The notes below the pieces were generated by a model, which did not search any database, had not been told where the DNA came from, and saw only the letters and a program-made list of their open reading frames with translations. This document shows, in pieces, positions 13,485 through 60,343 of a stretch of 64,000 nt of DNA. The DNA is from Aurantiochytrium sp. KH105 (taxonomy: Eukaryota > Sar > Bigyra > Thraustochytrida > Thraustochytriidae). The stretch spans positions 1-64,000 of the forward strand of contig BGKB01000092.1 of NCBI GenBank assembly GCA_003116975.1. The letters are read 5' to 3'. Made by a program: the position numbers and the translations under genes. Positions within the stretch are counted from its first letter, which is position 1. Every line of letters begins with the position of its first letter.

Positions 13485-16400
13485 ATGGTCCTCATTCAAG
13501 ACAGTGTGTACGGCGTCGCGCAGACCGCCGACCTCGTGCTAGCTGCCAGCGGAAATCACTTGACTCGCAATGACGGCTTCTTGCGCGCGTGGAGCAAGAA
13601 GGACGGCGCCCTCGTCTTCGAGATGAAGACGCCCAACAATCAAGAGGCCAACACAGTGGCCGTGCAGAGTAACCTGGCCGCCGTGGGGACTGACGCAGGC
13701 GGCCTCTTTCTCATTGACCTGGCCAACGCCACCGTCCTGCAGACCCTCCAGGGCCACACTGGCCATGTTTTGAGCATCATTTTCGACGGCGACAAGGTCA
13801 TCTCCGGTGGCGGAGCCGCCGACAAGACCATCCGCGTCTGGGACAGGATCAGTGGCCGAGAGACCTTGAGGATTGACGCCGGGGCGAGGGTCGGGAGCCT
13901 TGCCGCCCACGAGGACCTGCTTGTGGCCGGGTTGGGCGACTATACCGTGCGCATCTTCGACCGGGCCAGCGGCGGCCCACGCCACTTCCTCACGGAGGCG
14001 ACAGACTGGGTGCGAGCGGTCGCGATCGACGCGCAGCGCATGGTGAGCGGGTCCGACGACAACAAGGTGAGGGTCTACGGCGTGCCTTCCTTCCAGCTCG
14101 TCCGCGTCCTTGAAGGGCACACCAACTGGGTGTACTCTGTCGCGCTCGAGGAAGACCGCATCCTGAGCGGGTCCAACGACAACACGGTCAGACTCTGGGA
14201 CGCGCGCAACGGAGACGCGCTGCACGTCTTGCATGGACACTCGGACACGGTGTACTCGGTCTCTTTCTTGGGGTCGGAGATCGTGAGCGGATCTGGGGAC
14301 AACAGCGTGCGCATCTGGGACGCGGAGACGGGCGCCTCAACGCGCGTGCTGGACGGCACGGAGGCCGTGCGGCCCATCGAGGAAGTGCTCGGCGCCACTG
14401 CGACTACTGCGGCGGCGAAGGAGGCGCTCAAGGCGGCGCTGGCGAACGGGGACCCCGCGGAGCTGGGCCGCTGCAAGCTCATGGTCGTCGGTCAGGGCGC
14501 CGCCGGCAAGACGTCCGTGGTGCGCTCGCTGCTGGGCATACCGCCCGTGGCGGAGCACATCTCGACGGTGGGCGTCGAGCTCAAGCGCACCGATGCCGAG
14601 TCATGGCGGGAAGAGGAATTTGACAGCGGCTTTGAACGCCAGGCGTACCGCGTGGCGGCGCTGCGCATGGCCGTGCAAGAGGAGCAAACGGCGAGCGAAA
14701 TGCAGCAATCATTGCCAAGGCGCGTGTCCCAGGGCTCTTCAAATTCCGTCTTCACCGCGGAGGTGCAGGTGGAATTGGTGCCTGAGGCCGAGGTGGCGCG
14801 GCGCTTCGACATTGAGGAGATCGGGAATATGGCCGGCAAGACACAGTCAGGTCAGAAGATTTACTTTACGATCTGGGACTATGCGGGTCAAGACGTCTTT
14901 TACGCGCTACACCACATTTTCCTCACGCGCGAGGGCGGCGTCTTCATGGTCGTCTTCGACATGCAAGAACTCCTCATCAAGCAAGATCAAGCCCTTGGGT
15001 ATCTTTCTTTCTGGCTTAACTCGGTCAAGCTGCATGCACCCAAGGCCCCTGTCCTTTTGGTCGGAACACATTATGACCAAGCCTCCAGCCGTGATAGTCT
15101 GCAGACAGTTGAAAAAACTCTGCGGAAGGATCTGAAAGCGCTGCGTGGTATCAAACTCGTCAAAAACCACGCGCAAAGACTGAGCTTCTTTCCGATCAAC
15201 AACATGAGCTCTGCGGCAGATCGTGCCGTCGACCTTCGGCAAGCCGTTGAAGAGACCGCCTCGGAGCTCGAGTCCGTTTCGCAAAAGATCTCGCTGCGCT
15301 GGCTTATGGTCATCGACGACCTCATAAAGCTTGACTGCGATCACGTTCCCTTTTCAGCGGTGCAGGAACTAGCGGACCAGTATCACGCTGGCGACCAAAC
15401 AGACGAGCTTCTCAAGTTTTTTCACGAACTCGGAATGCTCGTTCATCTTCGCGCCACCGACACCTTGCACGACAAGGTCATCCTGAACCCACAATGGCTC
15501 TTGGACAAGCTGGCGCGAGTGATTGCGGACGAGATCCATGTGCAGGACATCTACTTTGACAAGAGGCTTTCCCGACTCGAACTCGAGAACGACTTTGCAC
15601 TCTTGCGCGAGAAAGGCATTGGTTCACGATCTCTGTTCGAATACTTGTGGAACGAGGAAGAGGTCGAATACCTCGTGGACTTCATGCGCGGCGCCATGCT
15701 CTTGTCGAACTGGAACTTCCCCGAGAGGTCGCTGCCGAGACAGCGCCAAAATGAGACACTCTACCTCGTGAGTAGTTTGCTCAAGAATTCGACCGACGCT
15801 GATTTTGATGCCGAAATTATGGATATGGACCCCGGCCTGACATGCGTTTTGGACTTTACCAAGTTTTTCCTTCCGGATGGCGTCTTTGCGCGAATGCTGT
15901 CGCTTTGTGCGCAGTACAGCGGAGACGTCAACAACGGCAAGCGCGCACCTCAGCTTGCCGGAGATCGAGCGATTGTTCGCTTCGGCCTCTCGGTATTTGC
16001 GCTCGAGCAGGACAACAACAAAATATGGGTTCGCATGGCAAAAGACGCGCACAAACCGGCAACTACACTCAAGACGCTGGTGAGCATTTTTCGCGGGGCG
16101 CGCCATGCCGTGTTTCGGGACTTGCCGTGGGAGCTTCTGTTGCAATCCCCGTCAGACGACTCTGTGCTGGTCAGGTATGACGCCATGGTCGAGGCGCGCA
16201 AGTCCGGGACACGCCTCGTCATGTCTGTGGGAACGAGAAATGCCAAAGTTCGAGAGTTTGGTCCCTTTTTTGATGACGGCTCATTGACGGATGAGGTAGA
16301 TACGAGTCCTGCGGAGAAGGGGAGTATTCTTTTTTCTGGTTTCAAGTACCATGTCTTTATAAGCCATCGGCAGGTTGATGCAGGGGATGCCTGCAACCTC

Positions 16401-16778
16401 ATGGCGGAGAAGCTTCGGCATCGCGGACTTAGTGTCTGGATTGACCAGGTTATTGAGGGTAACCTCGCAGAGGATGTCATGAGACGTGGCATTCGTGAGT
16501 CCAAGTGCTATTTGCTTTTTCTTTCCAAGACGGTGTTCTCCGACGCCGTGAAAATGGAGCTGGAAACAGCGTTGCGAGAGGAAAAACCCATTTTACTCGT
16601 GCACGAGGGCGACCCATCTCGCCCGGGTTTTGCCAACTTTTCCAAATACATCAACGATGCCCCGGCATCGGCCAAACATCTTTTCACAGAGAAAGAGTCC
16701 ATGCCTTTTCAGCGTCGTCTGTACCTTGCAGAAGCTTTTTACAAGGAGCTCGTTGAGCGCATCAGTGCCACCAGATGA
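13485..16778 (+). CDS. WD40-Roc-COR-TIR protein (ROCO family with C-terminal TIR domain)
   Basis: 1097 residues from the ATG at 13485, chosen because three paralogues in this window start at the same alignment position (MxxI..SVxxVAQ). Residues 1-290: seven-bladed WD40 propeller (LEGHTNWVYSVALEEDRILS, DNTVRLWDARNG, DNSVRIWDAETG). Residues 330-550: Roc GTPase with P-loop GQGAAGKTS (336-344), switch-II DYAGQ (465-469) and GTHYD (527-531) as the G4-type base-recognition motif. Next comes COR, with the family pattern FFHELGMLVHL...VILNPQWLLDKL. Residues 953-1090: TIR domain (YHVFISHR; ESKCYLLFLSKTVFS), with a Glu at 1025 in MELETAL where NAD-cleaving TIRs have their catalytic Glu. Soluble; no membrane helix. 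Known ROCO proteins are dimeric GTPases and TIR domains signal or cleave NAD; an immune-type or cell-death receptor role is inference. Confidence 0.92.
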   Translation: MVLIQDSVYGVAQTADLVLAASGNHLTRNDGFLRAWSKKDGALVFEMKTPNNQEANTVAVQSNLAAVGTDAGGLFLIDLANATVLQTLQGHTGHVLSIIFDGDKVISGGGAADKTIRVWDRISGRETLRIDAGARVGSLAAHEDLLVAGLGDYTVRIFDRASGGPRHFLTEATDWVRAVAIDAQRMVSGSDDNKVRVYGVPSFQLVRVLEGHTNWVYSVALEEDRILSGSNDNTVRLWDARNGDALHVLHGHSDTVYSVSFLGSEIVSGSGDNSVRIWDAETGASTRVLDGTEAVRPIEEVLGATATTAAAKEALKAALANGDPAELGRCKLMVVGQGAAGKTSVVRSLLGIPPVAEHISTVGVELKRTDAESWREEEFDSGFERQAYRVAALRMAVQEEQTASEMQQSLPRRVSQGSSNSVFTAEVQVELVPEAEVARRFDIEEIGNMAGKTQSGQKIYFTIWDYAGQDVFYALHHIFLTREGGVFMVVFDMQELLIKQDQALGYLSFWLNSVKLHAPKAPVLLVGTHYDQASSRDSLQTVEKTLRKDLKALRGIKLVKNHAQRLSFFPINNMSSAADRAVDLRQAVEETASELESVSQKISLRWLMVIDDLIKLDCDHVPFSAVQELADQYHAGDQTDELLKFFHELGMLVHLRATDTLHDKVILNPQWLLDKLARVIADEIHVQDIYFDKRLSRLELENDFALLREKGIGSRSLFEYLWNEEEVEYLVDFMRGAMLLSNWNFPERSLPRQRQNETLYLVSSLLKNSTDADFDAEIMDMDPGLTCVLDFTKFFLPDGVFARMLSLCAQYSGDVNNGKRAPQLAGDRAIVRFGLSVFALEQDNNKIWVRMAKDAHKPATTLKTLVSIFRGARHAVFRDLPWELLLQSPSDDSVLVRYDAMVEARKSGTRLVMSVGTRNAKVREFGPFFDDGSLTDEVDTSPAEKGSILFSGFKYHVFISHRQVDAGDACNLMAEKLRHRGLSVWIDQVIEGNLAEDVMRRGIRESKCYLLFLSKTVFSDAVKMELETALREEKPILLVHEGDPSRPGFANFSKYINDAPASAKHLFTEKESMPFQRRLYLAEAFYKELVERISATR

Positions 16779-17710: not shown

Positions 17711-19351
17711 CTACACAGACATTTCCATCTTGATGGTCTTGTGTGGCTTGTAGCCCACGAGCTCAAGATCTTCGTACTTGAAGCCATCAATGTCAGTGTT
17801 GTCCGTGTTGATCTTGAGCGTGGGAAAGGGGCGGGGGTCACGCAACAACTGCTCTTTGAGCGGCTCGACGTGATTTTTGTAAATGTGACAGTCGCCAATC
17901 ACGTGAATGAATTCGCCCGCGCGCAAGCCCGTGCACTTTGCAAGGAGGTGCGTGAGCAAGGCGTAGGAGGCAATGTTGAAAGGCACGCCAAGACCAATGT
18001 CACCAGAACGCTGGTACATTTGGCACGAAAGCTCGCCCTTTGAGACATAGAACTGAGCAAACATGTGGCAGGGCGGAAGCGCCATAAGGTGGAAGGCAGC
18101 CGGGTTCCACGCCGAAAGGATCATACGACGATCGTTGGGGTTGGTTTTGATCGTGTGCACAAGCTGCGCAAGCTGGTCGACACCCTTGCCCGAGTAGTCA
18201 TCGTGCATAGTAGTGTAGTCCGCGCCAAAGTGCCGCCACTGAAAACCATAGACGGGGCCGAGGTCACCTTCCTCTCGGTCTGTGAGGCCAATCTTGTCGA
18301 GATATTCACGAGACCCGTTGCCATCCCAAATGTGAATGTTCTTTTCTTGCAGTGTCTTGGCGCTCGTGTCGCCTGACATGAACCAGAGAAGCTCCTCGGC
18401 GACGCCGCGCCAAAAGACGCGCTTCGTCGTGAGAAGCGGGATGGTGTCGTTGCGAAGGCTGAAGCGCATCGTCGTGCCAAAAGTGGACAAGGTGCCAGTG
18501 CCAGTGCGATCGCCGCGGTCATCACCGTGCTCAAGAACATAACGCACCATGTCCAAGTATTGAAGTTCCTCGTGACACGAGGAGCGTTTGGTGACAGGGT
18601 GTGCGATGGGCGGGCGCGCGTTCTCCGTAAAAGGAGCCTCGGTTTCAGCTTCGGGAGAATCCGTAGTGGCAGCCGCCGGTTCTGGGCTCGTCGAGCGACG
18701 ACGATCGGAGGCCTCGGCGGCAGGGTCCACATCTGCCTCGCTCGTCTTGCGTACAAAGTGCAGAAACTCGTACTGGATGCCATCTTCTTCCTGCCGACCC
18801 TCGGGAGCGAGTTCCGGATGTCCAGCGCATCGAAAGACCGCCTCGTCAATTTTAGGAAAGAACGTGTCGCACTTGAAGTCACCGTAGACACGCGTGAGAA
18901 ATACGGAATCGCAAGCTTCGTGCGCAAGTGCCTCAGCGTACACGCTGGCGCCACCAATGACGATGGCGCGCTCGACATCAGGGCGCGCGCTGAGCTCCTT
19001 GAGTGCGGCATCAAGACTGGCGAAAATATCGACCTCCTTGGGAATGTCGAGCTCCTTCCGCACAGCCTCGGCGCCTGACTTGTCGGCGGCCCGAGTCGAA
19101 AGCACGACGTTAACGCGTCCTTCGAGCGGACGCATCTTGGCGGGAATGCTTGTCCACGTTTTTCTGCCCATAATGACGGCGTTCTTCTTGCCCTCTTCGC
19201 GCGCCGTGCTCGTCAACAGCTTAAAGACGCGCAGCTCGTTGCGCAGGCGCCAGGGGAGTCTGCCTTCGATCCCAATGCCGCTGCCGCTCTCTGCCACGGC
19301 TACCGCCAGGCTCACCGGCAGGCACGCCGCCTTGCCGACGTTCCCGCTCAT
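17711..19351 (-). CDS. DHFR-TS: Bifunctional dihydrofolate reductase-thymidylate synthase
   Basis: 546 residues from the ATG at 19349-19351. N-terminal DHFR (about residues 10-205): [29 protein letters not shown] and [13 protein letters not shown] are the folate and NADPH motifs. A Ser/Pro/Glu-rich linker of about 60 residues follows. C-terminal TS (about residues 265-546): [20 protein letters not shown], the nucleophile Cys in [30 protein letters not shown] and the extreme C-terminus KIKMEMSV-type tail (here KTIKMEMSV). TS converts dUMP to dTMP using methylene-tetrahydrofolate, and DHFR regenerates tetrahydrofolate. The fused enzyme is characteristic of plants, alveolates, stramenopiles and kinetoplastids and absent from animals and fungi, so it informs the host assignment. 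All catalytic motifs are intact. Confidence 0.97.
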
Positions 19352-19666
19352 GCTGCCACGCGCTTCCGCTCTCTCCCGCACCGCACCGCGTCGTGCGCCT
19401 GTCGTCGCGAGTCCACCTTCGTCCGCCGACTCGTGCTTGATATTGTTTTGCTACCCGCTGTCGGTCTTGGTCACCTAACGACCATCCTAACCACCATGAC
19501 CAGCCTTTCCCCCAAAAAAACAAAAGGGGGGACGCAAGACAACTTTTGGTGGGCCATTGTAGCAAAGGCAAGAAGATGATGCAAAAGAGTTGCTGGTTGA
19601 TGCACATGATGTTGACCGCCAACGTAACGTAAATCACCAGAGCAGAACCAAGGGTAATTTGTTTGT
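19352..19666. other. Short intergenic region upstream of DHFR-TS
   Basis: 315 bp between two minus-strand genes: promoter of DHFR-TS and 3' region of the membrane protein. Contains a CCCCCAAAAAAACAAAAGGGGGG inverted run near 19507-19530. No gene. Confidence 0.5.
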
Positions 19667-22276: not shown

Positions 22277-24397
22277 ATGACCGACCTCGAAAGGTCTGAC
22301 TTGCGACGCGCTGGTTTGACTCTCGCTGCCCCCATGTCGGGCATAAAGCATGCAAAAGCGCTTCGAGCACAGAACGTGGAGCTCGCGCGCTTGCAGTGCT
22401 GGCGCGCGAGGATGGCGGACCCGGAGGAGGCGGCGCGCGCGGCGTCGCAGGCCGAGTCGGTCTTCTCGTACGGCAACCTATCGTTCTCGAGCTCGCAGCC
22501 GCAGGCCGAGCGCAGCCGCAAGAGAGCGGCACGGCGGGAAAGCAACCACCGCGAGCACAACGGGGACCACGCACGGCGGAACCGGCGCGAGCGCGACGGC
22601 GGCCAAGCGCCTCGGGACGCAGAGGATGCTGGACCAGGATCAGGAGCACGCGATGGCCGCAAATGTCAGACCAGCGAGGCGAAAGCTGCCGAAGGCGAGG
22701 AAGAGCCGCGCAAAGGTCGCAAGGTCCGCAAGTCACATGTTTTTTGGGCGGCGCGCGCCAACGCGGCCATCAGCAGCGACTTTTGTCTAAAGCTTTCTTC
22801 GCAAGAGGTGCAAAGTATGGGCCAGACGGCAAAGCTAGGTCTGCGGCAAGACTTTCGACCGCCGCGACAAGCGCCCGTCGCCGCATCCCGATTTGACGTC
22901 CGGGCTGATGACGCGGCGCAACTTCAAGGAACCATCTTTGAACAACCTGCGCCACGAGCAGCAAAGAGACCTGATCATGGAAATGACGATGCATTCGGAG
23001 AAACGTCCCGTCTTGTCCAATCCACGTTGTCCTTCGCCACGGCTCCTAAGCGCTCGCGCACGAGCAAGTGCTTTGACGTTGCGCCGGTCGACGAGGATGA
23101 GGCCGCACTAAGTGGGACCGAGCCGGAACGCTCGGCAGACGGGCTCGCCGCAGAGGCTGAGGCACGGCAGCGGCGCAATCCCTTTGAATCCGCGCCCTGG
23201 CGCATGGTACAAAGACGATTTCCTTCAGCCTTGGAGGAGTATTCTGTGCGAGCCATTCTGGAGAACCGTCTTGGGAATGCGAGAAAGGTTCCCACTCTGG
23301 CCGTGATCGTGCTCAAGACGCACTACCTCGAAGAAGGTGCGACCTGTGTTCTCGCGGATCCAACGGGTGAAATTGAATCAGAGGTCCACCCACAAGTTCT
23401 TAGTTCAGACCAGTACGATTTCGTCGAAGGCTGCGCCGTCGTGCTCAAGGACTTTACTGTCTTTCGTGCGCACTTGAATCGTGAAGGCTATGCAAGTCAC
23501 TCCGTCATCATTACACCGCGCAATATCGAGCGACTTTTTGGCGCAAACGAGATGACGGATACGCAAGATCAAGCGCATGTTGACATCGAAGACAAGCAGC
23601 CTGTCGACGCGGAAGACGACAGCGATCTTGTGGGCTGGCTATCGGGCAACGCGGCAGAGGACGAGGCAACGAAACAGTCTGATGAGGTCCATCATCGAGA
23701 GGATACAGAGTCGTCTCTGCGCTTGAAGCAATTTGAAGCCTTGCTCAGTTCCCAAGCATCATCGTCATCGCGAGAGCAAGAGCAAAAGCAAGAACAAAAG
23801 CAAAAGCAAAAGGAGAAACAGACGCAACATCAGGGGGAGAAGACGCCCGCAACGCCAGACGTGGGTAAAGAAACAAAAGCGATGGACCGGGGAAAGACGT
23901 TGATGTCCACAAAAATAGACCCTGCAACCACAGAGGATGCAAGCCCGCGCATGGAGCAAATGGAAACCATCCACGATTCACAAATGTCGGTGTCGGTTAA
24001 AGAACGCAAGACGCAGGGCCGAGAGCTCGAGAAGCCCCCAAAGCCGACTGTGGAAGGCAACACTACAACAGTGACAATTCACCAGCAAGACACTTTAGTC
24101 TCCTCCTCCTCCTCAAGGGACGACACCATTCTCGCAGGAACTGCAAGCTCGCGCATGAAGCAATTGGAGGTCATGCTGACGTCTCCGTGCGAAGGCGCCA
24201 AGCAAAATGCATCGCAGTCCTCTGATCCAGACTGCGCTTTTGCCTTCGCCTCGCAGGCTGCCACCGTCGCCGTCGCGGACCCAGCCACAACCACTACTGC
24301 CGCGACGCCCGCCATCGCTTCAACGCAAGCTTCCTCGTTCAACGATGATCGCTGGCTCGATGACGACGCCGACGCCGACGAGGACCTTTTCGCCTAA
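22277..24397 (+). CDS. HROB: HROB-like OB-fold protein (homologous recombination factor)
   Basis: 706 residues from the first ATG; an in-frame ATG at 22412 (MADPEEAARAAS) is an equally good start. The N-terminal 320 residues are basic and low complexity with a TLSFA-type short motif. Residues ~310-425 are the only globular part: FPSALEEYSVRAILENRLGN, then KVPTLAVIVLKTHYLEEGAT, CVLADPTGEIESEVH, GCAVVLKDFTVF and SVIITPRNIERLFG. This matches the OB-fold of HROB (C17orf53/MCM8IP), which loads the MCM8-MCM9 helicase during recombination repair: the shape K(I/V)P.LAV(V/I)...DPTGE...VH...G.VL.LK...VF....(Y)L.VTP.N is conserved. The C-terminus is disordered, with Gln/Lys repeats and a three-times repeated xRxKQxExxLxS motif, ending in an acidic tail DDDADADEDLFA. 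Nuclear role inferred. Confidence 0.7.
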   Translation: MTDLERSDLRRAGLTLAAPMSGIKHAKALRAQNVELARLQCWRARMADPEEAARAASQAESVFSYGNLSFSSSQPQAERSRKRAARRESNHREHNGDHARRNRRERDGGQAPRDAEDAGPGSGARDGRKCQTSEAKAAEGEEEPRKGRKVRKSHVFWAARANAAISSDFCLKLSSQEVQSMGQTAKLGLRQDFRPPRQAPVAASRFDVRADDAAQLQGTIFEQPAPRAAKRPDHGNDDAFGETSRLVQSTLSFATAPKRSRTSKCFDVAPVDEDEAALSGTEPERSADGLAAEAEARQRRNPFESAPWRMVQRRFPSALEEYSVRAILENRLGNARKVPTLAVIVLKTHYLEEGATCVLADPTGEIESEVHPQVLSSDQYDFVEGCAVVLKDFTVFRAHLNREGYASHSVIITPRNIERLFGANEMTDTQDQAHVDIEDKQPVDAEDDSDLVGWLSGNAAEDEATKQSDEVHHREDTESSLRLKQFEALLSSQASSSSREQEQKQEQKQKQKEKQTQHQGEKTPATPDVGKETKAMDRGKTLMSTKIDPATTEDASPRMEQMETIHDSQMSVSVKERKTQGRELEKPPKPTVEGNTTTVTIHQQDTLVSSSSSRDDTILAGTASSRMKQLEVMLTSPCEGAKQNASQSSDPDCAFAFASQAATVAVADPATTTTAATPAIASTQASSFNDDRWLDDDADADEDLFA

Positions 24398-43860: not shown

Positions 43861-44904
43861 TTAAAGCATATAAGACTCTCTGGTGCTGGCATTCGCGAGC
43901 GAGGTTTGACGTTCGAGTCCACGATCTCGTCGCCAAGGCCAGCAGCCAGCAAAGCAGCCAAAAGGAGGAGTTGAAGGAGACGGTGGGGCGTCTGCTGCCT
44001 CAAGAGCGAGTGCCAGCGCACCCCACGTTCGCGCAGATGGCGAAGCCTCGGTGCCGTCAAAAGCGCGCTTCACGGCGCCCGTCTCCACGTCCCAGATCTT
44101 GACAGAGCAGTCCCATGATCCACTGACAATATCAGACCCCAGCAAAGAAACGGATTGCACTGCATTCGAGTGTCCGTGAAGCGTACGAAGCTCTTGACCA
44201 TCCGTAGCATCCCAGACTTTGATGGTCCTGTCCCAAGAACTGCTGACAATGGTATCTCCGTCAAGTGCAACGGAATTGACCCAGCTTGTGTGTCCTTCGA
44301 GGGTGTGAAGAAGCTCAAAGGAAGGCACGTCGTAGACCCGAATTCGTCGATCGTCAGATCCGGTGACCAAGTGTTTGTCGTTCATGGCAATAGATTTCGC
44401 CCACACTGTCGGCACGCTGAAAATATGCACACGTTCGCCAGTAGACTTGGAAAATACCTGAACTGTGCTGTCTTTAAAACCTACGACAATGAAATCGTCT
44501 TGGGTGGCAAGACCGCCAACTTTTGAGCCAACTGAAATTGTTGAAGTGCATACCCCGGTGGATGCGTCCCACATCCGAATGGAGCCATCCCAAGATCCAG
44601 AGAACACGACGCCACCATCCAAAACGACGTCCCAAACGGCGTCCGTGTGTCCTTGCAGCACGTAAACAACTGCCCCCGAGAGGACGTCAACAAGATAGAC
44701 GGCACCTGTGTACGTCCCGACAACAGCAAGATTGCCGTGAACATCGACGGCCAGGGCTCCTGCGTTATTGGGCGTCTTGACCTCCAAGACCAAGGCGCCC
44801 TCTTTGCTCCACGCGCGGAGAGCGGGGTCGAAGCCGCCGCTTCCGGCCACGATGAGCTCGTTCGACTGCGCGACAGCCCAGACGCTCCCTCCGATACGAC
44901 CCAT
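43861..44904 (-). CDS. WD40-only protein A, paralogue of the WD40-Roc-COR-TIR sensor domain
   Basis: 347 residues from the ATG at 44902-44904 (MGRIGGSVWAVAQSNELIVA), the same start position as the WD40-Roc-COR-TIR protein and two neighbours. The frame stays open upstream but without similarity. Seven WD40 blades follow (YVLQGHTDAVWDVVLDGGVV, DGSIRMWDASTG, LEGHTSWVNSVALDGDTIVS, DRTIKVWDATDG, LHGHSNAVQSVSLLGSDIVS, DCSVKIWDVETG), ending at AFDGTEASP where the large protein continues into its linker. The unique C-tail of about 55 residues holds FGCFAGCWPWRRD, Cys/Trp-rich and possibly membrane-associating. No Roc, COR or TIR sequence follows within this gene. Predicted function: protein-protein interaction. 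Confidence 0.9.
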   Translation of the reverse strand: MGRIGGSVWAVAQSNELIVAGSGGFDPALRAWSKEGALVLEVKTPNNAGALAVDVHGNLAVVGTYTGAVYLVDVLSGAVVYVLQGHTDAVWDVVLDGGVVFSGSWDGSIRMWDASTGVCTSTISVGSKVGGLATQDDFIVVGFKDSTVQVFSKSTGERVHIFSVPTVWAKSIAMNDKHLVTGSDDRRIRVYDVPSFELLHTLEGHTSWVNSVALDGDTIVSSSWDRTIKVWDATDGQELRTLHGHSNAVQSVSLLGSDIVSGSWDCSVKIWDVETGAVKRAFDGTEASPSARTWGALALALEAADAPPSPSTPPFGCFAGCWPWRRDRGLERQTSLANASTRESYML

Positions 44905-45729
44905 GGCGCTTTTGCTTCCTGTCTTGCCGAGCCGAGATCCTGTTGCTCTGCTAATCCCAAACCACCAAGCCAAAACGCAGCCACGATGGCGCGAGCGAAC
45001 TACGTTTGCCACGCACGAACTGCAGCACCCGGGCACGGCGAGAGCGTGGGCGGCCGCCGGGGCCGAGGCGTCTCGATTGATCGATTGCGCGAGCCAGCCC
45101 GAGTTGAGTCGCCTGTGAGTTGAGCTGGTCCTGTCAGCCAGGCAGGCAGCACCTGGGCGTGTGCCGCCGCTACTGCAACTGCACGTGCTAGGCAAGTTGA
45201 AGGTAAAGTAAAACCTCTGACTGTGAAGGCGGCACGAGGTGACGCTCCGCGGAACATGCTGGAACCAAGGCGAGAGGGGGCTGCCAGCGAGGGGTAGATC
45301 GGCCCTCGCAGCGGCAACACGCAAGCCCAAGTCTTCGGATGACGGTGGTAGAGGCTCGCGGTACGTCTCACATCGACGAGAACGCCAGCGGGCGTACTTA
45401 CGTGTGGTTTGGCTCTGGATTTTGCCTGGACCACTCATTCGCTGATCATCTGCATCATCACACTTTGCCGCGCATGTCCCGTTTTCGGCCGTCCAGGTCA
45501 TGTAGCAGACAACCCACTCCACTACAGTGAAGTATCGTCATTGCACGAAGAACGGTTTTGCCAGCTGCGAGGACCATGCACAGCATGCCACTTTGTCTAT
45601 ATCAACATTCTATCGTTCGTTTCGCTCATGAGACTGGTAACAAACTACACACACATAAATTGGTTTTAGCTTTGATTTTGCTGGCTTCCCCGGACACGAA
45701 ATTCGGGCGTCGGGGCTTCGTTTTACAAA
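44905..45729. other. Intergenic region between WD40-only genes A and B
   Basis: 825 bp: promoter of gene A and 3' region of gene B. I looked for remnants of Roc, COR or TIR in all frames and saw none. No gene. Confidence 0.55.
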
Positions 45730-46899
45730 TTACAAGTCTTCGGCGAGGGACGCACCTGATGATGATGGGTTGCGTCGGGTTCGATACCATTGAGAAAAGA
45801 GCATGCGCGGCAAAAGGTCGCCCTTGATATCTTCATGAATAGTTCTTCGCAATCGCTCGAGCTGTTGTTGTGGATGCTCCTCCTGCTTCGCCAACTTTTG
45901 CTGCTGTTTTCGCTGTTTCCTCTTCTTTTGCCATTGCGTCTTTCGATCTAGCAGAGAAGACGACAACGAGCAAACTGGGACTTCCTTGCGGTTCATCGCT
46001 CGGTTCAAAGCTGCCAATTCCCGAGTGGACGGCAGCGGTTCTGTTCCGTCATACGAATGCTTCAAGGCCCCCGTGTGAAGGTCCCAGGTTTTTACAGAAA
46101 AGTCCCAAGCCCCACTCACAATGTCGGAGCCAAAGATTGAAACCGAAAGGATGGCGTTGTCATGTCCGTGGAGCATCAAGAGCGGGTCACTCGTATAGCA
46201 GTCCCAAATGATGATTGTTGTGTCCCACGAGCAGCTCACAACACGGTTTCCGGCGACAGCGACAGAGTGCACCCAGCTTGTATGTCCTTCGAGGACGTTG
46301 AGCAGCTCAAACGAGGGTATTGCGTAGACCCTCACCTTTTTGTCATTCGAGGCGGACACCAGGTGGCGCGCGTCCATCGCGACCGAGTGCACATCGTCGC
46401 CTGCGTCACGAATCACCGCAAGAGTTTCTTCGGTGGTCCTGTCAAAGATGCGCACCGAATTGTCCACCAGGAAGCCTGCGGCGATCAGGTTGCCGTGCGT
46501 GGCAATGCCGCCGATCTTGGGTCCAACGAAGATCGACTGCACGCACTCGCCGGTCTCCTCATCCCAGATCCGAATGGACCCATCCCAGGAGCCCGTGACG
46601 ATCGCGTCGTCGAGCACGACGCTCCAGACCGCTGCCGTGTGGCCTTGAAGCTCGTGCACGACTTCTGCGGCGAGCACGTCGACGATGAAGACGGCGCCCG
46701 GAAAGGTTCCTGCTGCGGCGCGGTTACCCCGCACGGCGACGGCCAGCACTCCAGCCTGGTTGGGCGTGGCCATCTCGAGCACCAGCGCGCCCCCGCGCCT
46801 GGTCCACGCCCTCAGCACCGGGTCGAAGGCGCCGCTGCCGGCCACGACCAGCTGCTCCGACTGCGCCACGGCCCACACGCTCCCGTTGATGAGCCCCAT
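45730..46899 (-). CDS. WD40-only protein B, paralogue of the WD40-Roc-COR-TIR sensor domain
   Basis: 389 residues from the ATG at 46897-46899 (MGLINGSVWAVAQSEQLVVA); longer starts lie in a GC-rich low-complexity leader and are not conserved. Seven blades align end to end with protein A and the large protein (HELQGHTAAVWSVVLDDAIV, DGSIRIWDEETG, LEGHTSWVHSVAVAGNRVVS, LHGHDNAILSVSIFGSDIVS, DFSVKTWDLHTG) and end at the shared SYDGTEPLPS. The C-terminal tail of about 95 residues is unique: strongly basic and Gln-rich coiled coil (QWQKKRKQRKQQQKLAKQEE), then LLPRMLFSQWYRTRRNP. The tail could be a nuclear signal or a dimerisation element. Between A and C in the same orientation. Confidence 0.9.
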   Translation of the reverse strand: MGLINGSVWAVAQSEQLVVAGSGAFDPVLRAWTRRGGALVLEMATPNQAGVLAVAVRGNRAAAGTFPGAVFIVDVLAAEVVHELQGHTAAVWSVVLDDAIVTGSWDGSIRIWDEETGECVQSIFVGPKIGGIATHGNLIAAGFLVDNSVRIFDRTTEETLAVIRDAGDDVHSVAMDARHLVSASNDKKVRVYAIPSFELLNVLEGHTSWVHSVAVAGNRVVSCSWDTTIIIWDCYTSDPLLMLHGHDNAILSVSIFGSDIVSGAWDFSVKTWDLHTGALKHSYDGTEPLPSTRELAALNRAMNRKEVPVCSLSSSLLDRKTQWQKKRKQRKQQQKLAKQEEHPQQQLERLRRTIHEDIKGDLLPRMLFSQWYRTRRNPSSSGASLAEDL

Positions 46900-47895
46900 C
46901 CCGCCCGCCGCGCCTCCCGCCGCGCCTCCCGCCTCCTCGCCCGCCCGCGCAAGCCCGCCCGCGAAAGCCCGCGCCCGGCCCCGCGCAGGAGCGAACGGGT
47001 TCTGCCGCCTGCCTCGCGCCGCTGGCTCTGGCCGCGGCGTGCGCATCCCGGCGCGCTTCTTCGCACCGCCCGCCCGCCCGCTCCCAGTGCCAGCCATCCC
47101 TCCCTGCGCGCTGCAGCGCTGCGCCGGCCGAGAGGAGAGGAGGAGAGGGAGGAGAGGACGGCACGCCGCGGCGACGCCCGCGCTCCCCCGCCGGCTCGGC
47201 CTGGCCTGGCTCGGCCTGGCCTGGCCTGGCATGGCATGGCGTTCACGCAGAGCACCCACGGTCGATGGCTCCTACACCGCCACGTGCACCAAAACACGCG
47301 TCGACGCAGTTCGTGCTTCTCGTTCGTCCCTGCGCTGCTGCTGCGGCTCGACTCGACTCGACTCGACCCGCCTCGCCTCGCAGCGGCAAGGCAAGGCAAG
47401 GCAAGGGCAGACGCGTGAGGAGAGAAGACGAGGCGAGGCGAGACGAGAGCAGAGCAGGCAGGCCGGCCCAGGCCACGCGCGCTGGCCTGCGCGCGCACGG
47501 GGAGCGGCCAGCGCCGGAGGAGCTGGGGCGAAAGTGGCGCGAGGTCGGGACTGCGTGCAGGGCAGAGCAGGGGAGCGGGAAGGAAGGGTGGACCGAGTTG
47601 AAGGTATCGGCGTTGACATGTGGGAGAAGAAGCCAAGGAGGACAAGGACAAGGAGGAGGAGAAGAAGAGCAAAAGTATGATTCACAAAGAGGTTGACTGG
47701 TGGGAGGGAGGTATTGCAAGGGGAGATGAGCGGCCTCGACGAGCAAGACTTCACGGCTGTTCGTGTGTCTGCGTTGTCATGATCTACGCACCACTGCAGT
47801 CTAGGCTCAGCTCAGCTCAGCTCAGCTCAGCTCAGCTCCGCTCAGCAAGGCCTTGGGGCTTTTTCAGGCTTGGCCTAGTAGGGCCTAGTTATCCG
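46900..47895. other. Intergenic region between WD40-only genes B and C, repeat-rich
   Basis: Contains ggcctggc-type repeats near 47195-47240, (GACTC)n near 47348-47366, (GGCAA)n at 47385-47405, and (CTCAG)n, about eight copies, at 47805-47845 close to the end of gene C. Open frames on both strands are compositional artefacts. Confidence 0.7.
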
Positions 47896-48798
47896 CTACC
47901 ATAGACAAAGACACGATGAGGAGGACGAAGAAGACTCGAGCAGTGGCTCCATTCCATTGAGCACATACTTGGCAGAGCCAGACTCGAGATCCCATGCCCG
48001 GACAGTTCCGTCCCAGGACCCAGAAACAATCTCTTGCCCCACAAGAGAGACGGATTGCACGTCTCCTTCATGATCCTGGAGCATGTGAATTTGCTCGCCA
48101 GAATCAGAGTCCCAGACTCTCACCGTATTGTCTGCCGATCCGCTGACAATATATGCGCCCTCGAGCGCAACGGACCACACACGATGACTGTGTCCCGAAA
48201 GAACGTGGACGAGGTCGTATGAAGGCAAGGCGTAAATTCGAATCATGCAGTCATGCGACCCCGTCACAATACGCTCAGTGTCCATTGCAACGGCCCCAAA
48301 CACATCGGTTCCTTCGCGAATGACACGTAAGCGTTTGCCGCTATCATGTTCAAAGACGCGAATGGTGCCATCCTGCAAGGCGGTTGCAATCAATTCTCCA
48401 TTCGATGCAAGGTCTCCCACCTTGGACCCTGTTGCGATTGTCTTGATGCAATCCCCGCCCGACTTGTCCCATACGCGTATGGTTCCATCCCAAGACCCAG
48501 AAACGACCTCATCGTTGAGGATGATGCCTCCGATGGCGTCTTCGTGACCTCTTAAAGTCTGCACGAGCTCACCAGATTCAACATCGACAAGGAAAATGTT
48601 GCCTTCGTACGTGCCGAGTGCAGCCAGGTTGCCTTCTAGCGCCAGGGTTGTCGCTGCGGCCGCATCTGGCGTCTTCAATTCGAAAATCAAGGCGCCCGCT
48701 TTGGTCCACGCGTACAAGGCCGGGTACTCCCCTGCCGTCGCCGCGACGATGAGCGTCTCGGACTGTGCGACCGCATAGACCTCGCTAAGGCGGCCCAT
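47896..48798 (-). CDS. WD40-only protein C, paralogue of the WD40-Roc-COR-TIR sensor domain
   Basis: 300 residues from the ATG at 48796-48798 (MGRLSEVYAVAQSETLIVA). The frame continues upstream only through a (GTGC)n microsatellite. The propeller is complete (LVQTLRGHEDAIGGIILNDE, DGTIRVWDKSGG, LSGHSHRVWSVALEGAYIVS, DNTVRVWDSDSG, LQDHEGDVQSVSLVGQEIVS, DGTVRAWDLESG) and ends at VLNGMEPLLE, with only a short Ser-run tail and final CLCLW. It is the most minimal and most diverged of the three. Same strand as A and B and the first in their row. Likely an interaction module without its own effector domain. Confidence 0.9.
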   Translation of the reverse strand: MGRLSEVYAVAQSETLIVAATAGEYPALYAWTKAGALIFELKTPDAAAATTLALEGNLAALGTYEGNIFLVDVESGELVQTLRGHEDAIGGIILNDEVVSGSWDGTIRVWDKSGGDCIKTIATGSKVGDLASNGELIATALQDGTIRVFEHDSGKRLRVIREGTDVFGAVAMDTERIVTGSHDCMIRIYALPSYDLVHVLSGHSHRVWSVALEGAYIVSGSADNTVRVWDSDSGEQIHMLQDHEGDVQSVSLVGQEIVSGSWDGTVRAWDLESGSAKYVLNGMEPLLESSSSSSSCLCLW

Positions 48799-48815
48799 CG
48801 TCCGAGCGTCCGAGC

Positions 48816-48816
<1 letters not shown>

Positions 48817-48870
<54 letters not shown>

Positions 48871-48871
48871 T
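48817..48871. repeat. (GTGC)n tetranucleotide microsatellite
   Basis: About 13 copies directly upstream of the start of WD40-only gene C. On the minus strand it reads ARTHARTH, an artefact. Confidence 0.95.
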
Positions 48872-49914
48872 GAGCGAAAGCAAGCAAACAAGCAAGAGCG
48901 CAAGGGAGAAGACTAGTGTGTCTTCTCGCGCGGCGTCGTGCCGAGGAGGAGCTGCAGCGCGCGCGCAGATGCGCCTCCTCTTTCAGGTCTGACCCCTGTT
49001 TTGGTTGCAGTGCAGCGGTTTGGGCAGCGCGTGCCGCACTTTTTCTTTTAGCCTACTTTCGAGCGAGGGAATTTTTTTTTCTCTCTTGGCCGGCCTATCC
49101 CTTCCACACAACGGAACGTGGCGGGCACTGCCAGTGCGAGTTGTCGTGCATGTCCGCTTGGTTCGTAACATCGGTCAGAAAAGAATTGGAAAGAATTGAG
49201 GTGATGAATGAGACGCAACAGAGGAAACGAAAGCAATTGATGCCAGCGATGACATCAATTTGCAGGAAGAAAGGAAAGAAGATGTTTGCACGGCGTCCTT
49301 GAGCAAAAGCAGCTTCACTTCTACGGCAACGCGCGCAAACAAGCGCAAAAGATATTTTCGGCAGCTAAAGGCAAAATGCGTCGATGTCTGCTGCACGAGG
49401 TTCGATGACTCGGAGTTTAATCGATGATGCCCGTCACGATGATCTTGCCACCATTTGCGTCAACTACAATTCTTGCTTCTTTTGGGGGATTGTGGAAACA
49501 ATGACTTTTTAACAAGGCCTTGTCCGATTTTTTGATACGGCAGAAAGAGATCCTCAAGTGAGAGGCGTAACAGCAAAGAAGAGAGATGCTGGGCATTAGA
49601 GCAATGGAGACATGATCGATACGACACATACAGTGTGTGATTTTTGAGTAGTTGGTCGACGCGTCGGTAGTCCCTGTCCGAAAGACGTAAGAGGATTCCG
49701 TGTAGTACGCGTGTGCGCAGCTCAAGGGGAGAAAAGAGAAATGCAAAGAAGTCATGCAAAACACGAAAAACCCGTCTTTTGGCTCTGGAGTTGTTTGGAC
49801 ATGCCGTGGAAAAAAATACCTAGAGTCTGATGTTGTCGCGGCTCGCATGGTAAGCCCAAGAGGTAGTGTGTATAGCACAAACAAGAGCTTGAAGAGCTAA
49901 AAACTAGACCGACG

Positions 49915-52805: not shown

Positions 52806-53691
52806 TTGTCCAGCGTTCGCGCTATCCTGTGAGTCTGGCCGCGTCTCCTTTGCCATTGCCTAACAACTTTGACGAGAGTTAGACTCTCTTTTATCTAAAA
52901 GAAGGAAATCTAATTTCGTCTTTTCGTGACAAAATTTACCTCTTTTATTCTACCAGTCGCTTAACTTCTTGTTGTCCGGCCTCCTTGTTGACTTTACAGT
53001 ATACGTATGTGAGAACTTGAATCTCGGAGCGAGCACGTTGAAGTCGAACATGAAGCAAAAGGTAGTATAGTCCCACATGCTCGCTCGGTTCTCGAAGCAT
53101 GTTCAATTCGAGCATGAAGAAAAAGATGTGTAGTAGCGGTAGTGTGCTCGTTCAGTTTGCGTCTTTATCAAACTTTTTCAAAAAAAGGTGATGAGAGAGC
53201 CCAAGCGCCTCTTGACTTGTGAAGAAGGCTGCGGAAGAAATCGAGAATCCATCGATTCGTTCATAACACGATTCCTGAGATCTAGAAATTCGTTTATACT
53301 TCAAGAGTGGTAGTATACCCCTTTAACCCCCAAATAAAAAAGACATCGCCTCTCATTACCTTTGGCCATCGCCTGGTATCCGCATGCATTCGCCTTTCGC
53401 CTCGCATCCGCTTTTCGCCTCGCACCAAGAAGCCATCGCCGCCCACAAAAACTAGCAGCAGAAGCAGCAGGTTTTTCGCCAAGGCAAAGAGGCAGGCCGA
53501 CAGAAGCAGTAGCAGGGAAAAACAAAGAGCAAAAAGCGGACAAGGCTCTGCTCGTGCGCGGCGTGCGGCCGGTCAGCCGATTGATCGGCCAAGCGAGCGA
53601 GCGAGCAAGCTAGCGAACGAGCAAGCCAGCGAGAAAGGTCTCTCGCTCGCGCGCAACAGCAGCCGAAGGTGCGAGTTGCGTGCGATATATC
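52806..53691. other. Intergenic region between HSP90 and the galectin-RRM gene
   Basis: Contains a degenerate direct repeat of about 68 bp at 53026-53160 and a tcgcct/catccgc-type repeat near 53365-53445. The last 250 bp are the presumed promoter/leader of the next gene. No gene seen. Confidence 0.55.
53026..53160. repeat. Degenerate 68-bp direct repeat downstream of HSP90
   Basis: Two diverged units align through gaGcatgAAGaaAAagatgtgTAGTA / gaacatgAAGcAAAaggTAGTAtagt and gtGCTCG(c)tC(g)gTT. It resembles an older version of the gene-end duplications seen elsewhere in the window. Confidence 0.5.
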
Positions 53692-55461
53692 ATGACGACC
53701 ATCCGTATCAAGGTACCGCGCGGCGGCGCGGCGGCGGCGTCGAACGTGGACATCGACATTAGCAGCAGCAGCGAGGACGAAGACGAGGTAGGGTCGAACG
53801 CCGACAAGTCGTTGACCGGCGACGCCGAAAATACAGACCAACGCAAGCCGCAGGACCGAGACTACGAGCCAGAGCGCCTCGAGACCGCTCCGGGGCTGGC
53901 CGGCAGGGGCAGCGCCGCTAGCGCGGGCGCCGGGCTTGGCAGGCATGGCGAAGATGACGACGACGATGACGATAACGACTCAATCGACAAGTATATGCCC
54001 GCCTCCGCGCAGTCAAAACCGGCAGCCGGACACGACGACACCTTTTCCAACCTTTCTGTCCCAGAGCGCTATCAACCGATTATTCACGAGCTCACAGAGC
54101 AAGAGCGTCGACTCTTGGACAAATTCGTGCGCTCCAAGAAACTTGTGCTGAAGATGCCGGTCCGCATGGAGCAGGTCGCAGCCGCTCGACGCGCGCAAGA
54201 GAACGAGCGCAAGCGACGCGGAAACACCTTTACGGATTCTGACCGTGTCGCGGGTCTCGTCAAGCGTCCTCGCATCAACGTCGGAGGACCGCTCGCAGAC
54301 GGCGCGCACCCACAATCTCCGCCACAACAGCCCATGCTCTCGCAGAGAGGGGCTCAGCCGCGGACTCCCACGCAGCTTGACCGTGGCAAATCGATCGCCG
54401 CTCTTAGTACCCATTATGACGATGCAGGCGTGCTCATGCTTTCGGACTGGCGTTCCACCGAGAGCAAAGAGCCCCTGGTCATCGAACTTCCAAACCTCCA
54501 ACACGAACCCAACGCCGCCGAAGGCTCGGGCAACTCGCAAAGTGTTCAGTCTGGAAATACCGTTGTTGTCTGGGGGACCTTCCCGGATGCTTCCGAGCGC
54601 TTTTGCATTAATTTGGCGCCGTCCACCTCGTACAAGGAAAGTGACCCAAATACCGTCTTTCTGTACCACTTTAATCCTCGCGACGGCTGGGGCAAGAAGC
54701 AGATCCAACAGAACGCCTTTGTGCACGGCAAATGGGGCCGTGCTGATCGGGCTGTACAGAGCATGCCGATTGTGAAAAACAAGCGCTTCGAATTACGAGT
54801 CACCGCTACGCCCAAGGAGTTTCTCATTTTTCTTGACGGAAGGCACTTTGACACATTTGCAAACCGTGCAGACCCTCGCTACCTACAGCCGGGCCGCTCG
54901 CTATACCTCATTGTGCCTCTCGTCGAGGATCACTACGGCGACAAGGAAGATGTCAAGATTCATGGTGTCTGGTGGGGCCATCGCCCTGCGCGAATGCGCA
55001 GCCCCTCACATAGTGGGCCGGCCTATTCTCCCAACAGAAGGTTTCCTTCTGGCCCTGGTGGCATGTCGGGTCCGCGACCTGGCCCCGGCGGCGGGCCTGG
55101 CGGCGGGTACGGCGGAGGCCCGGGTTTTCATTCACGAGGGCCCCCACATCCTGGCGGTCATCGCCGGCCAAGGTCCACGCCACAGCTCGAGGAAAAGGTC
55201 CTCTTTGTTTCGGGGCTTCCCAAAGACACTGGGTCGGCATTCAACGAGCTCTTGCGACTTTTTGAGCATTACGGCGTCGAAAAGGATCACAATGGTCAGC
55301 CACGCATACGCGTCATCGAAGGCAAGGATTTTGCCTTTGTTACGCTGCGCGAAGAGTCAAGTGTTGCCGAGGCCATTCGTTTTCTCGACGGCAAGCCCGG
55401 ACAGGCTGGTCTCACACTTTCGGTCACTCGTGCCCGTAAACGACCAGGCTACCACGGCTGA
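53692..55461 (+). CDS. Galectin-RRM fusion protein
   Basis: 589 residues from the ATG at 53692. Residues 1-240: acidic Ser/Asp runs (phosphorylation-type) and a helical basic patch (AARRAQENERKRRGN) that could serve as a nuclear signal. Residues ~288-428: galectin carbohydrate-recognition domain, NTVVVWGTFPDASERFCINL, then YHFNPRDGWGKKQIQQNA and WGRADRA. By galectin-1 numbering His44, Asn46, Arg48, Asn61 and Trp68 are present (here H326, N328, R330, N341, W348), but Glu71 is replaced by Ala351. A Gly/Pro/Arg-rich linker follows. Residues ~500-585: RRM, with VLFVSGLPKDTG as RNP2-type and FAFVTLREESS as RNP1-type strands. Binding of RNA is likely; sugar binding is uncertain because of the lost Glu. 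No signal peptide. A nuclear RNA-binding role is inferred. Confidence 0.85.
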   Translation: MTTIRIKVPRGGAAAASNVDIDISSSSEDEDEVGSNADKSLTGDAENTDQRKPQDRDYEPERLETAPGLAGRGSAASAGAGLGRHGEDDDDDDDNDSIDKYMPASAQSKPAAGHDDTFSNLSVPERYQPIIHELTEQERRLLDKFVRSKKLVLKMPVRMEQVAAARRAQENERKRRGNTFTDSDRVAGLVKRPRINVGGPLADGAHPQSPPQQPMLSQRGAQPRTPTQLDRGKSIAALSTHYDDAGVLMLSDWRSTESKEPLVIELPNLQHEPNAAEGSGNSQSVQSGNTVVVWGTFPDASERFCINLAPSTSYKESDPNTVFLYHFNPRDGWGKKQIQQNAFVHGKWGRADRAVQSMPIVKNKRFELRVTATPKEFLIFLDGRHFDTFANRADPRYLQPGRSLYLIVPLVEDHYGDKEDVKIHGVWWGHRPARMRSPSHSGPAYSPNRRFPSGPGGMSGPRPGPGGGPGGGYGGGPGFHSRGPPHPGGHRRPRSTPQLEEKVLFVSGLPKDTGSAFNELLRLFEHYGVEKDHNGQPRIRVIEGKDFAFVTLREESSVAEAIRFLDGKPGQAGLTLSVTRARKRPGYHG

Positions 55462-59571: not shown

Positions 59572-60343
59572 GCTCGCTTCTCTTCTTGTCCTTTTGTCCT
59601 TGTGCAATGGTTCTTTCGCTGTGTGATGATGCTCCGGCTCAGTGCAATGATGCTTTCGGATTTGGATTTGAATTTTTGAACCGACGTTCGCTTAGGAGAC
59701 AACATGAAGACAAGTCGGCTCATCTTCTTACTTGGGAGGCGACAAGACCGAAACCCAATTTGGGGTTCAGAAGTCTCCGACGAAAGGGAGCGAAGCATCA
59801 CACAGTGAAGAGACAGAAGTTCATCCATTCATCCATCCAAATGCGCTACGCACGGCTATTAGGCTTCGGATGTGTCATAAAATAAGAAAGGATAAAAAAA
59901 GGAAGAGGGGAAGATCCTATGTCACAATCGAAAGCCACAAATCTTCTACATAGCCTCGTGCGGCATTCGGTGATCTCACACTCGCTCAAAACGTTTTCTC
60001 TTGCACACATGCATCCATCACATGCCGACCATCATTTCATCACATGCCTCGCAATCAACGTGAAGACAACGAGCGAGCGCTACAGCGTCGCTCGCGGGCG
60101 GGTCGGACGAATCCTCAGCATCATCTTGAGACGACGCAGAACTTGCGAAGCACGGAGCGAGCAGAGCAATCTGACAATCCTGCAGGCCAGACGCCGTCGC
60201 GCTTGCCTGGGAGAGCAACGTGAACATTCAAGGTCGACGAGGTGTCGTCGGACGAGCGCGACCGCACTAGGCGAAAGAGCCTGAACGCGAGGAGTTCGCG
60301 TCGCGCCTGGCAGAGAGTCGAGCCGAGCAAGACCAAGATCAAG
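59572..60343. promoter_or_regulatory. Divergent promoter region (MSH4 / SDR)
   Basis: 770 bp holding both promoters. The first 350 bp are AT-rich, the rest GC-rich. Minus-strand ORFs across the SDR are shadows. No specific element recognised. Confidence 0.5.

Follow-up and report, generated by a model that had tools for sequence, protein, structure and literature searches.

Receptor repertoires of the NLR type are known from plants, animals, fungi and bacteria. For the NWD family of Podospora anserina, the parts of PMC1805685 that were covered place codons 7, 9, 25 and 27 of the WD40 repeats under strong positive selection; these codons flank two conserved positions and lie in the d-a loop and the b-c turn, at the top of the propeller. 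A second candidate repertoire is built on ROCO proteins: according to the sections covered of PMC11378527, brown algae have 9-47 ROCOs per species with LRR-ROC-COR as the sole layout, and unicellular SAR relatives, with Schizochytrium aggregatum among the species searched, have four or fewer. The same sections mention TPR-ROCO-TIR in Chondrus; excerpts of two further papers report ROCO-TIR proteins in Aplysia (PMC9334734) and a Trichoplax ROC-COR figure whose legend also lists TIR (PMC4104024). Here we describe a gene in a stretch of 64,000 nucleotides (contig BGKB01000092.1 of assembly GCA_003116975.1, positions 1 to 64,000; ‘the window’) that encodes a WD40 propeller, a Roc GTPase, COR and a TIR domain in one protein, and that has dozens of paralogs in the same genome. 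Their propellers share a near-invariant scaffold and differ at about four residues per blade. No report of WD40-Roc-COR-TIR or of its diversification was found in the open-access literature searched (one library).

A ROCO protein with a WD40 propeller and a TIR domain

The gene (Table 1) runs without interruption from its ATG to its stop, its start Met is common to most of the complete paralogs read, and the open frame here and in most paralogs fits a single exon. In a Pfam search of the window protein, in which each domain match was counted against its curated cut-off, WD40, Roc, COR-A and TIR_2 were all above that cut-off. An AlphaFold2 (AF2) model of the propeller, for which the sequence of this gene was combined with three other window propellers, has a mean predicted local distance difference test score (pLDDT) of 93.6. 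It shows 28 strands, which make up seven four-stranded blades. Its 50 Foldseek rows from the PDB are beta-propeller proteins, judged by their titles. Behind the propeller stands a Roc domain with its G motifs (GQGAAGKTS at amino acid (aa) 336, DYAGQ at 465 and GTHYD at 527), directly followed by COR-A and COR-B, as in ROCO proteins. The nucleotide-binding part matches Roc/Ras families and Roco/LRRK2 structures, and no NACHT or NB-ARC NTPase occurs among the best 25 of 44 Pfam families for the protein. By these sequence matches we class it as a ROCO protein with a TIR domain and not as an NLR, because its NTPase is Roc.

A profile of the Roc-COR-TIR part, built from 18 family sequences, aligns with C. 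tepidum Roco (chain 3dpu), and this alignment extends over the second half of COR. The region that a preliminary description of the gene had called a linker domain is therefore COR-B, and a new domain at this place is ruled out. The TIR part of the same profile matches the SARM1/TIR-1 NAD (nicotinamide adenine dinucleotide) hydrolases. These are also the best PDB relatives of a 16-row TIR profile, which places Glu1025 on the Glu of the SARM1 stretch DWVHKE, a residue that we take to be catalytic. The position is nearly invariant in the 16 family TIRs, and Glu is kept in all 26 receptor copies with a readable TIR, of 28 (25 by pattern, L011 by eye; L-numbers label matches or copies elsewhere in the genome). 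The preliminary description had thus placed the seven-bladed propeller, Roc, COR, TIR and the Glu at the NADase position (E1025) correctly. Its sensor-switch-effector layout, NLR-like on a ROCO core, is borne out at the level of domains, with Roc as the presumed switch; the protein would work like an NLR without being one.

Dozens of receptor copies in a two-haplotype assembly

The genome searched comprises 76 Mb in 367 contigs, among which the window is contig C92 and its other haplotype contig C101. The Roc-COR-TIR part has 60 matches over many contigs, counted as at least 58 gene copies (a lower bound, with 58 of 220 candidates scored). Fifty-three of these are near full length, at 64-100% identity, and five are partial; 47 of the 53 lie in a stop-free frame of at least 1030 aa and two carry in-frame stops, most complete copies being 1096-1108 aa long. 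Some receptor propellers are out of frame. In this assembly of two haplotypes COR-A has 124 matches, 116 of them above cut-off, and TIR_2 at least 150, all above cut-off (150 of 258 candidates scored). What had been described as one gene with this architecture keeps the architecture and loses its solitude: a lone gene is ruled out by dozens of Roc-COR-TIR copies, and a chance architecture is excluded because it recurs as paralogs through the genome.

The assembly retains both haplotypes. The dihydrofolate reductase-thymidylate synthase (DHFR-TS) gene beside the receptor occurs on C92 and on C101, genes resembling polyunsaturated fatty acid (PUFA) synthase occur in pairs, and five pairs of receptors can be aligned at 92-95% along some 5.3 kb. 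The PfaA-like match among the PUFA-synthase-like genes scores 930 bits where its model asks for 1010, and 11 of 14 control genomes likewise give hits beneath that threshold, so that these genes point weakly to a thraustochytrid host. We therefore infer about 30 receptor loci per haploid genome. One receptor copy, L038, has a different N-terminal stretch before its propeller. In addition, L072 (C26:115720-116620) and others are propellers on the receptor scaffold with no Roc-COR-TIR match listed alongside; these may be donors or stand-alone binders. A search for relatives beyond this genome confirmed none among 115 pattern matches in genome contigs and 112 in viral contigs, a weak scan with two short patterns each, and a bacterial or viral source was set aside on that footing.

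Four variable residues per blade on a near-invariant scaffold

Our site analysis started from 31 copies (30 from the genome search plus C101b, a copy from C101), with further copies that had partial stretches left out. It kept 23 sequences after L012, L021, L025, L026, L028, L029, L030 and L038 had been dropped as haplotype duplicates or as broken; the close pairs L009/L014 and L013/L018 stayed in the set, and L018 and L033 are without their first part. Following the rule from PMC1805685, we defined a set of 28 sites, four per blade, as the residues that flank a conserved V and a conserved D. Of the 28 most variable propeller sites, 22 fall in this set. Mean entropy at the 28 sites is 2.52 bits, and no shift of the set by 1-8 codons gives more than 1.64; for blades 4-7 alone, in which the register is unambiguous, the values are 2.66 and at most 1.55. 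Codon 72 is the sole near-invariant member of the set. Hypervariability at repeat positions 7, 9, 25 and 27, which marks the fungal HNWD repeats, is therefore found here too. In the model, each blade has one of its pairs where strand a begins and the other between strands b and c; from propeller anatomy, rather than from coordinates, the pairs would make up the top face. That paralog variation is concentrated on the loops of one face favours the role of sensor that the preliminary description had given to the propeller: the same few residues of a presumed binding face differ, and the domain is otherwise near-unchanged, as would be expected of an immune or self/non-self recognition repertoire.

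The scaffold itself shows little silent change. Over 253 pairs, mean mismatch at four-fold degenerate sites is 0.078 in the propeller, 0.19 in Roc, 0.44 in COR-A, 0.51 in COR-B and 0.49 in TIR, and variable residues differ at 79% over the pairwise comparisons. In seven paralogs with the same scaffold (21 pairs), picked for their low silent divergence, four-fold mismatch is 16/2940 (0.5%) in the propeller and 53% in COR-TIR; 420 of 540 variable residues (78%) and 776 of the 1620 nucleotides that encode them differ. We also compared ten apparent haplotype or close pairs. Variable residues differ at 22 of 27 positions in L010/L012, at 24 of 28 in L022/L021 and at 21 of 27 in L023/L030, with four-fold mismatches in the rest of the propeller of 0/148, 0/148 and 1/149, respectively; in L031/L038 the counts are 22/26 and 13/138. 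Two pairs, L036/L029 and L020/L025, are little informative, one member's propeller being broken or poorly aligned.

A mosaic window gene and its WD40-only neighbours

Opposite the window gene, C101 carries two receptors. The first has nearly the same propeller (3/28 variable residues and 7/145 four-fold sites differ from the window gene) and a COR-TIR part that is not shared (four-fold mismatch 73/195). The window gene was compared with 22 other sequences by stretches of 60 codons: its propeller is 95-99% nucleotide-identical to the C101 allele, its COR-A is closest to L011, codons 841-900 match the C101 allele again (0.967), and the TIRs nearest to its own are those of L015, L016 and L010. 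From this mosaic we conclude that sensor and signalling parts have been exchanged between dispersed loci.

Three tandem WD40-only propeller genes lie in the same window. Relative to their C101 partners, they differ at 5/327, 13/360 and 59/511 residues and at 11/187, 17/209 and 27/265 four-fold sites. Nearly all differences of the third gene are in a low-complexity stretch ahead of its propeller, and by eye the haplotype differences are not concentrated at the variable positions. The receptor pattern is thus no general property of WD40 genes, of this chromosome region or of codon usage; with this much silent change in the WD40-only genes, a codon-usage constraint behind the low silent divergence is unlikely.

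Table 1. Positions in the window of the receptor gene, its domains and variable codon pairs (entropy over 23 copies), and other genes
Feature	Position	Strand	Basis or remark
WD40-Roc-COR-TIR gene	13485..16778	+	one open frame, 1097 aa (1097 codons); ATG at 13485, stop ends at 16778
Seven-bladed WD40 propeller (aa 1-291)	13485..14357	+	Pfam 2.5e-28; AF2 model pLDDT 93.6, 28 strands
Variable pair, d-a loop, blade 1 (codons 7, 9)	13503..13511	+	entropy 3.12, 2.47 bits
Variable pair, b-c turn, blade 1 (codons 29, 31)	13569..13577	+	entropy 3.27, 2.17 bits
Variable pair, d-a loop, blade 2 (codons 54, 56)	13644..13652	+	entropy 2.42, 2.11 bits
b-c turn, blade 2 (codons 70, 72; only 70 variable)	13692..13700	+	entropy 2.62, 0.27 bits
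Variable pair, d-a loop, blade 3 (codons 94, 96)	13764..13772	+	entropy 2.85, 1.56 bits
Variable pair, b-c turn, blade 3 (codons 112, 114)	13818..13826	+	entropy 3.26, 1.84 bits
Variable pair, d-a loop, blade 4 (codons 135, 137)	13887..13895	+	entropy 3.08, 2.63 bits
Variable pair, b-c turn, blade 4 (codons 151, 153)	13935..13943	+	entropy 2.82, 1.49 bits
Variable pair, d-a loop, blade 5 (codons 175, 177)	14007..14015	+	entropy 2.39, 2.66 bits
Variable pair, b-c turn, blade 5 (codons 191, 193)	14055..14063	+	entropy 2.53, 2.81 bits
Variable pair, d-a loop, blade 6 (codons 215, 217)	14127..14135	+	entropy 2.59, 2.59 bits
Variable pair, b-c turn, blade 6 (codons 231, 233)	14175..14183	+	entropy 2.96, 2.05 bits
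Variable pair, d-a loop, blade 7 (codons 255, 257)	14247..14255	+	entropy 3.17, 2.95 bits
Variable pair, b-c turn, blade 7 (codons 271, 273)	14295..14303	+	entropy 2.88, 3.00 bits
Roc GTPase (about aa 330-545; P-loop 14490-14516)	14472..15119	+	PF08477 4.8e-18; motifs
COR-A (aa 605 to about 700)	15297..15584	+	PF16095 7.7e-12
COR-B (about aa 701-945)	15585..16319	+	family profile aligned with C. tepidum Roco 3dpu
TIR domain (aa 957 to C-terminus)	16353..16775	+	PF13676 (TIR_2) 1.9e-12; PDB profile, best SARM1/TIR-1
Glu1025 codon	16557..16559	+	aligned with Glu of SARM1/TIR-1 ‘KE’
Bifunctional DHFR-TS, downstream of receptor	17714-19450	-	Pfam; 99% identical on other haplotype
HROB-like (homologous recombination OB-fold) protein	22277-24394	+	
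Three tandem WD40-only propeller genes	43864-48903	-	46-49% identical to receptor propeller
Protein with galactoside-binding lectin domain, near WD40-only cluster	53680-55458	+	
MutS-family gene	57046-59607	-	

Sensing, diversification and alternative explanations

We consider it probable that the window gene belongs to a receptor family with a sensing propeller, a Roc-COR switch and a TIR effector, and that the diversity of this family stems from both ectopic gene conversion and very strong diversifying selection. The family would be a large one whose members serve in recognition inside the cell. A variable ligand would be bound by the propeller face that the d-a and b-c loops of all seven blades build; Roc-COR would relay this binding as a GTP-dependent change of conformation or dimer state; and the C-terminal TIRs, brought together, would act, most likely by NAD cleavage, with defence or cell death as the outcome. 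It is the pattern of variation that points to a sensor role of the propeller, whereas Roc-COR switching and NAD cleavage are suggested by homology to the families named above. Ectopic gene conversion would homogenise the propeller scaffold and make mosaics between dispersed copies, and very strong diversifying selection would act on four residues per blade. We favour this combination because it explains both the mosaicism and the homogenised scaffold; how the variation is divided between selection and a mutational mechanism is something that we infer.

The ratio of nonsynonymous to synonymous substitution (dN/dS), a parsimony count on recombining sequences, is 2.35 at the 28 codons, 0.61 at the 257 other propeller codons and 1.19 for the whole propeller; outside the propeller it is 0.26 in Roc-COR, 0.29 in COR-B and 0.21 in TIR. 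This manner of counting is one of several points that weigh against our interpretation. Synonymous counts are also higher at the variable codons (dS 2.95 vs 0.96), and the single-site tests are weak, with uncorrected P<0.05 at 8/291 propeller and 2/378 Roc-COR sites. The P value for the overlap of the 28-site set with the most variable sites (about 2e-22, 23 copies) is not blind, since the set was written after the first entropy list had been seen, and the seven same-scaffold paralogs are a chosen sample. There are pairs with little change at variable sites: L024/L026 (0/26), L027/L028 (4/25), L009/L014 (3/28) and L013/L018 (1/26). For the effector, a single-sequence TIR structure model has a pLDDT of 39 and was not used. 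Finally, linkage between variable codons is weak: in 21 paralogs, the joint identity ratio is 1.19 at 2 codons, 1.14 at 14-22 and about 1 beyond. Block shuffling alone is therefore no explanation, and the idea of shuffled old codon blocks was rejected.

Some of these observations may be read in another way, namely that many loci receive copies of a common scaffold through a dedicated mechanism that alters specific codons as it copies. We regard this as unlikely, and the same low probability attaches to its fuller form, a eukaryotic site-directed diversification in which about 28 binding-face codons would be rewritten during or soon after copying between dispersed loci, possibly shared with the TIR-NACHT-like-WD40 proteins of this genome. 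L010/L012, L022/L021 and L023/L030, which differ at most variable residues with no more than one four-fold mismatch, speak for it. So does L023 compared to L031: of the nucleotides that differ, 42 belong to the 28 codons, 10 to eight loop codons beside them and 4 to the remaining 255 codons (the five other listed pairs have 39-43, 6-12 and 6-17, respectively). Moreover, some sites combine a fixed third base with 7-9 different pairs of first and second bases. The fixed base is C at codon 217 in 23/23 copies, G at codons 175 and 215 in 22/23 and, at codon 94, T, which is rare here as a third base, in 22/23; past one blade, as noted, the joint identity of variable codons is near random. Fixed third bases at some sites, weak linkage and near-zero silent change together argue for recent changes in place. 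On the other hand, a single third base prevails in 90% or more of the copies at just 7 of the 27 sites that truly vary; the rest have a mixture, mainly of C and G, and third-base G+C is 89% in variable codons vs 90% in the scaffold, contrary to random NNN. Many variable positions are not dominated by A, and A in adjacent conserved Asp, Thr and His codons is rarely altered; this base pattern does not fit a classical adenine-directed diversity-generating retroelement, which we rejected on these grounds with no search made for its reverse transcriptase. No template or non-coding copy occurs among the matches listed (40 of 95 and 134 of 636 candidates scored), and strong selection in a large population could yield the same picture.

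A further possibility is that the family controls cell or mating compatibility, as HET-D/HET-E do in Podospora, instead of sensing pathogens. We think allorecognition somewhat doubtful: the variable positions are those of the fungal allorecognition WD40 repeats, and the two haplotypes of the window locus differ in how many receptors they carry and in signalling parts, but a repertoire of dozens suits many ligands at least equally well, and the fungal authors, in the text covered, propose pathogen sensing even for the hnwd genes. It is likewise improbable, to a slightly greater degree, that the TIR is an assembly or scaffold domain devoid of NADase activity that acts through partners. TIR adaptors without enzymatic activity do exist, the low-scoring TIR model leaves the pocket geometry unseen, and L054, a related ROCO-TIR protein, has Gln in place of the conserved Glu; against these stand the Glu in every readable receptor TIR and the SARM1/TIR-1 NAD hydrolases as best profile relatives. 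As for the assembly, which keeps both haplotypes, we see very little chance that collapsed or chimeric copies imitate the mosaic and the variation. The two near-full-length copies with in-frame stops and the out-of-frame propellers might suggest as much, but many open frames have the differences in register, at the same codons of all blades, and no such differences are seen in the window's WD40-only genes.

Other TIR and ROCO proteins of the genome

The same four positions recur in a protein with a different switch. L070 (C24:10200-13900, a stretch open at both ends) has a TIR, then an NTPase that matches NPHP3_N, which we take to be NACHT-type, and then WD40 repeats that, unlike the blades of the window protein, are near-identical. 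In nine repeats compared, its amino acids vary mainly at positions 8, 9, 11, 25 and 27, which are the residues on either side of V and D and one next to them, with few changes at other codons. L070 is an HNWD-like layout in which TIR replaces HET. NCBIfam and PADLOC gave weak, domain-level matches, of which the strongest are HEAT-ARM_XIII for the WD40 part of L070 (1.4e-18) and Avs1b for its NTPase part (5.3e-8). Other genome frames of about 1300-1900 aa with TIR and WD40 matches resemble L070. The ROCO-TIR proteins L039, L041, L043, L045 and L055 have no sensor domain by Pfam in the stretch read, and L001 and L005 are ankyrin-repeat-TIR proteins. The window also holds the DHFR-TS, HROB-like, lectin-domain and MutS-family genes of Table 1.

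Comparison with known systems

In these receptors, present in dozens of copies, a sensor and an effector of the NLR kind are joined to Roc-COR, a GTPase switch unrelated to that of NLRs. The four hypervariable positions are common to fungal NLRs, L070 and the receptor family: one sensor solution on two unrelated switches. A near-invariant scaffold set against widely changed contact codons makes possible a direct test of selection alone versus a mutational mechanism; if codons were indeed rewritten during copying, this would be a eukaryotic counterpart of diversity-generating systems on a ROCO-TIR receptor, with a germline repertoire produced by mutation too.

Among proteins of solved structure, C. 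tepidum Roco and LRRK2 share the Roc-COR core of the window protein but have different sensor domains, and LRRK2 has a kinase and lacks a TIR. SARM1/TIR-1 provide the closest solved TIR domains by profile, with their Glu aligned to Glu1025, in an ARM-SAM-TIR layout; unlike the window protein, they are without Roc-COR or WD40. The Chondrus (PMC11378527) and Aplysia (PMC9334734) proteins join Roc-COR to TIR, as here, but with other sensor domains; few copies are reported, and a hypervariable propeller is not described in the text covered. The brown-algal LRR-ROC-COR candidate immune receptors are likewise ROCO proteins in expanded number, and diversifying selection acts on that face of their N-terminal repeats which presumably binds the ligand; in the sections of PMC11378527 covered, their LRR exons undergo shuffling and alternative splicing, whereas the receptors described here have a WD40 propeller in one uninterrupted frame. 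Compared to the four or fewer ROCOs of the unicellular SAR species surveyed there, 124 COR-A matches (over two haplotypes) would be a striking expansion if the host is a thraustochytrid.

There is a close likeness, too, to the HNWD family of Podospora anserina (HET-D, HET-E and HET-R), as described in the portions covered of PMC1805685 and PMC2873952. Both families have a WD40 sensor with the same four variable positions per repeat, and in both the scaffold is homogenised by exchange between copies. The fungal switch is NACHT, whereas here it is Roc-COR; the fungal effector is an N-terminal HET domain, whereas here it is a C-terminal TIR, so that the HET-plus-NACHT pairing is lacking. The fungal repeats are near-identical and variable in number, in contrast to an N-terminal propeller with seven distinct blades and a near-constant length, the latter read from copy lengths and not from blades counted singly.

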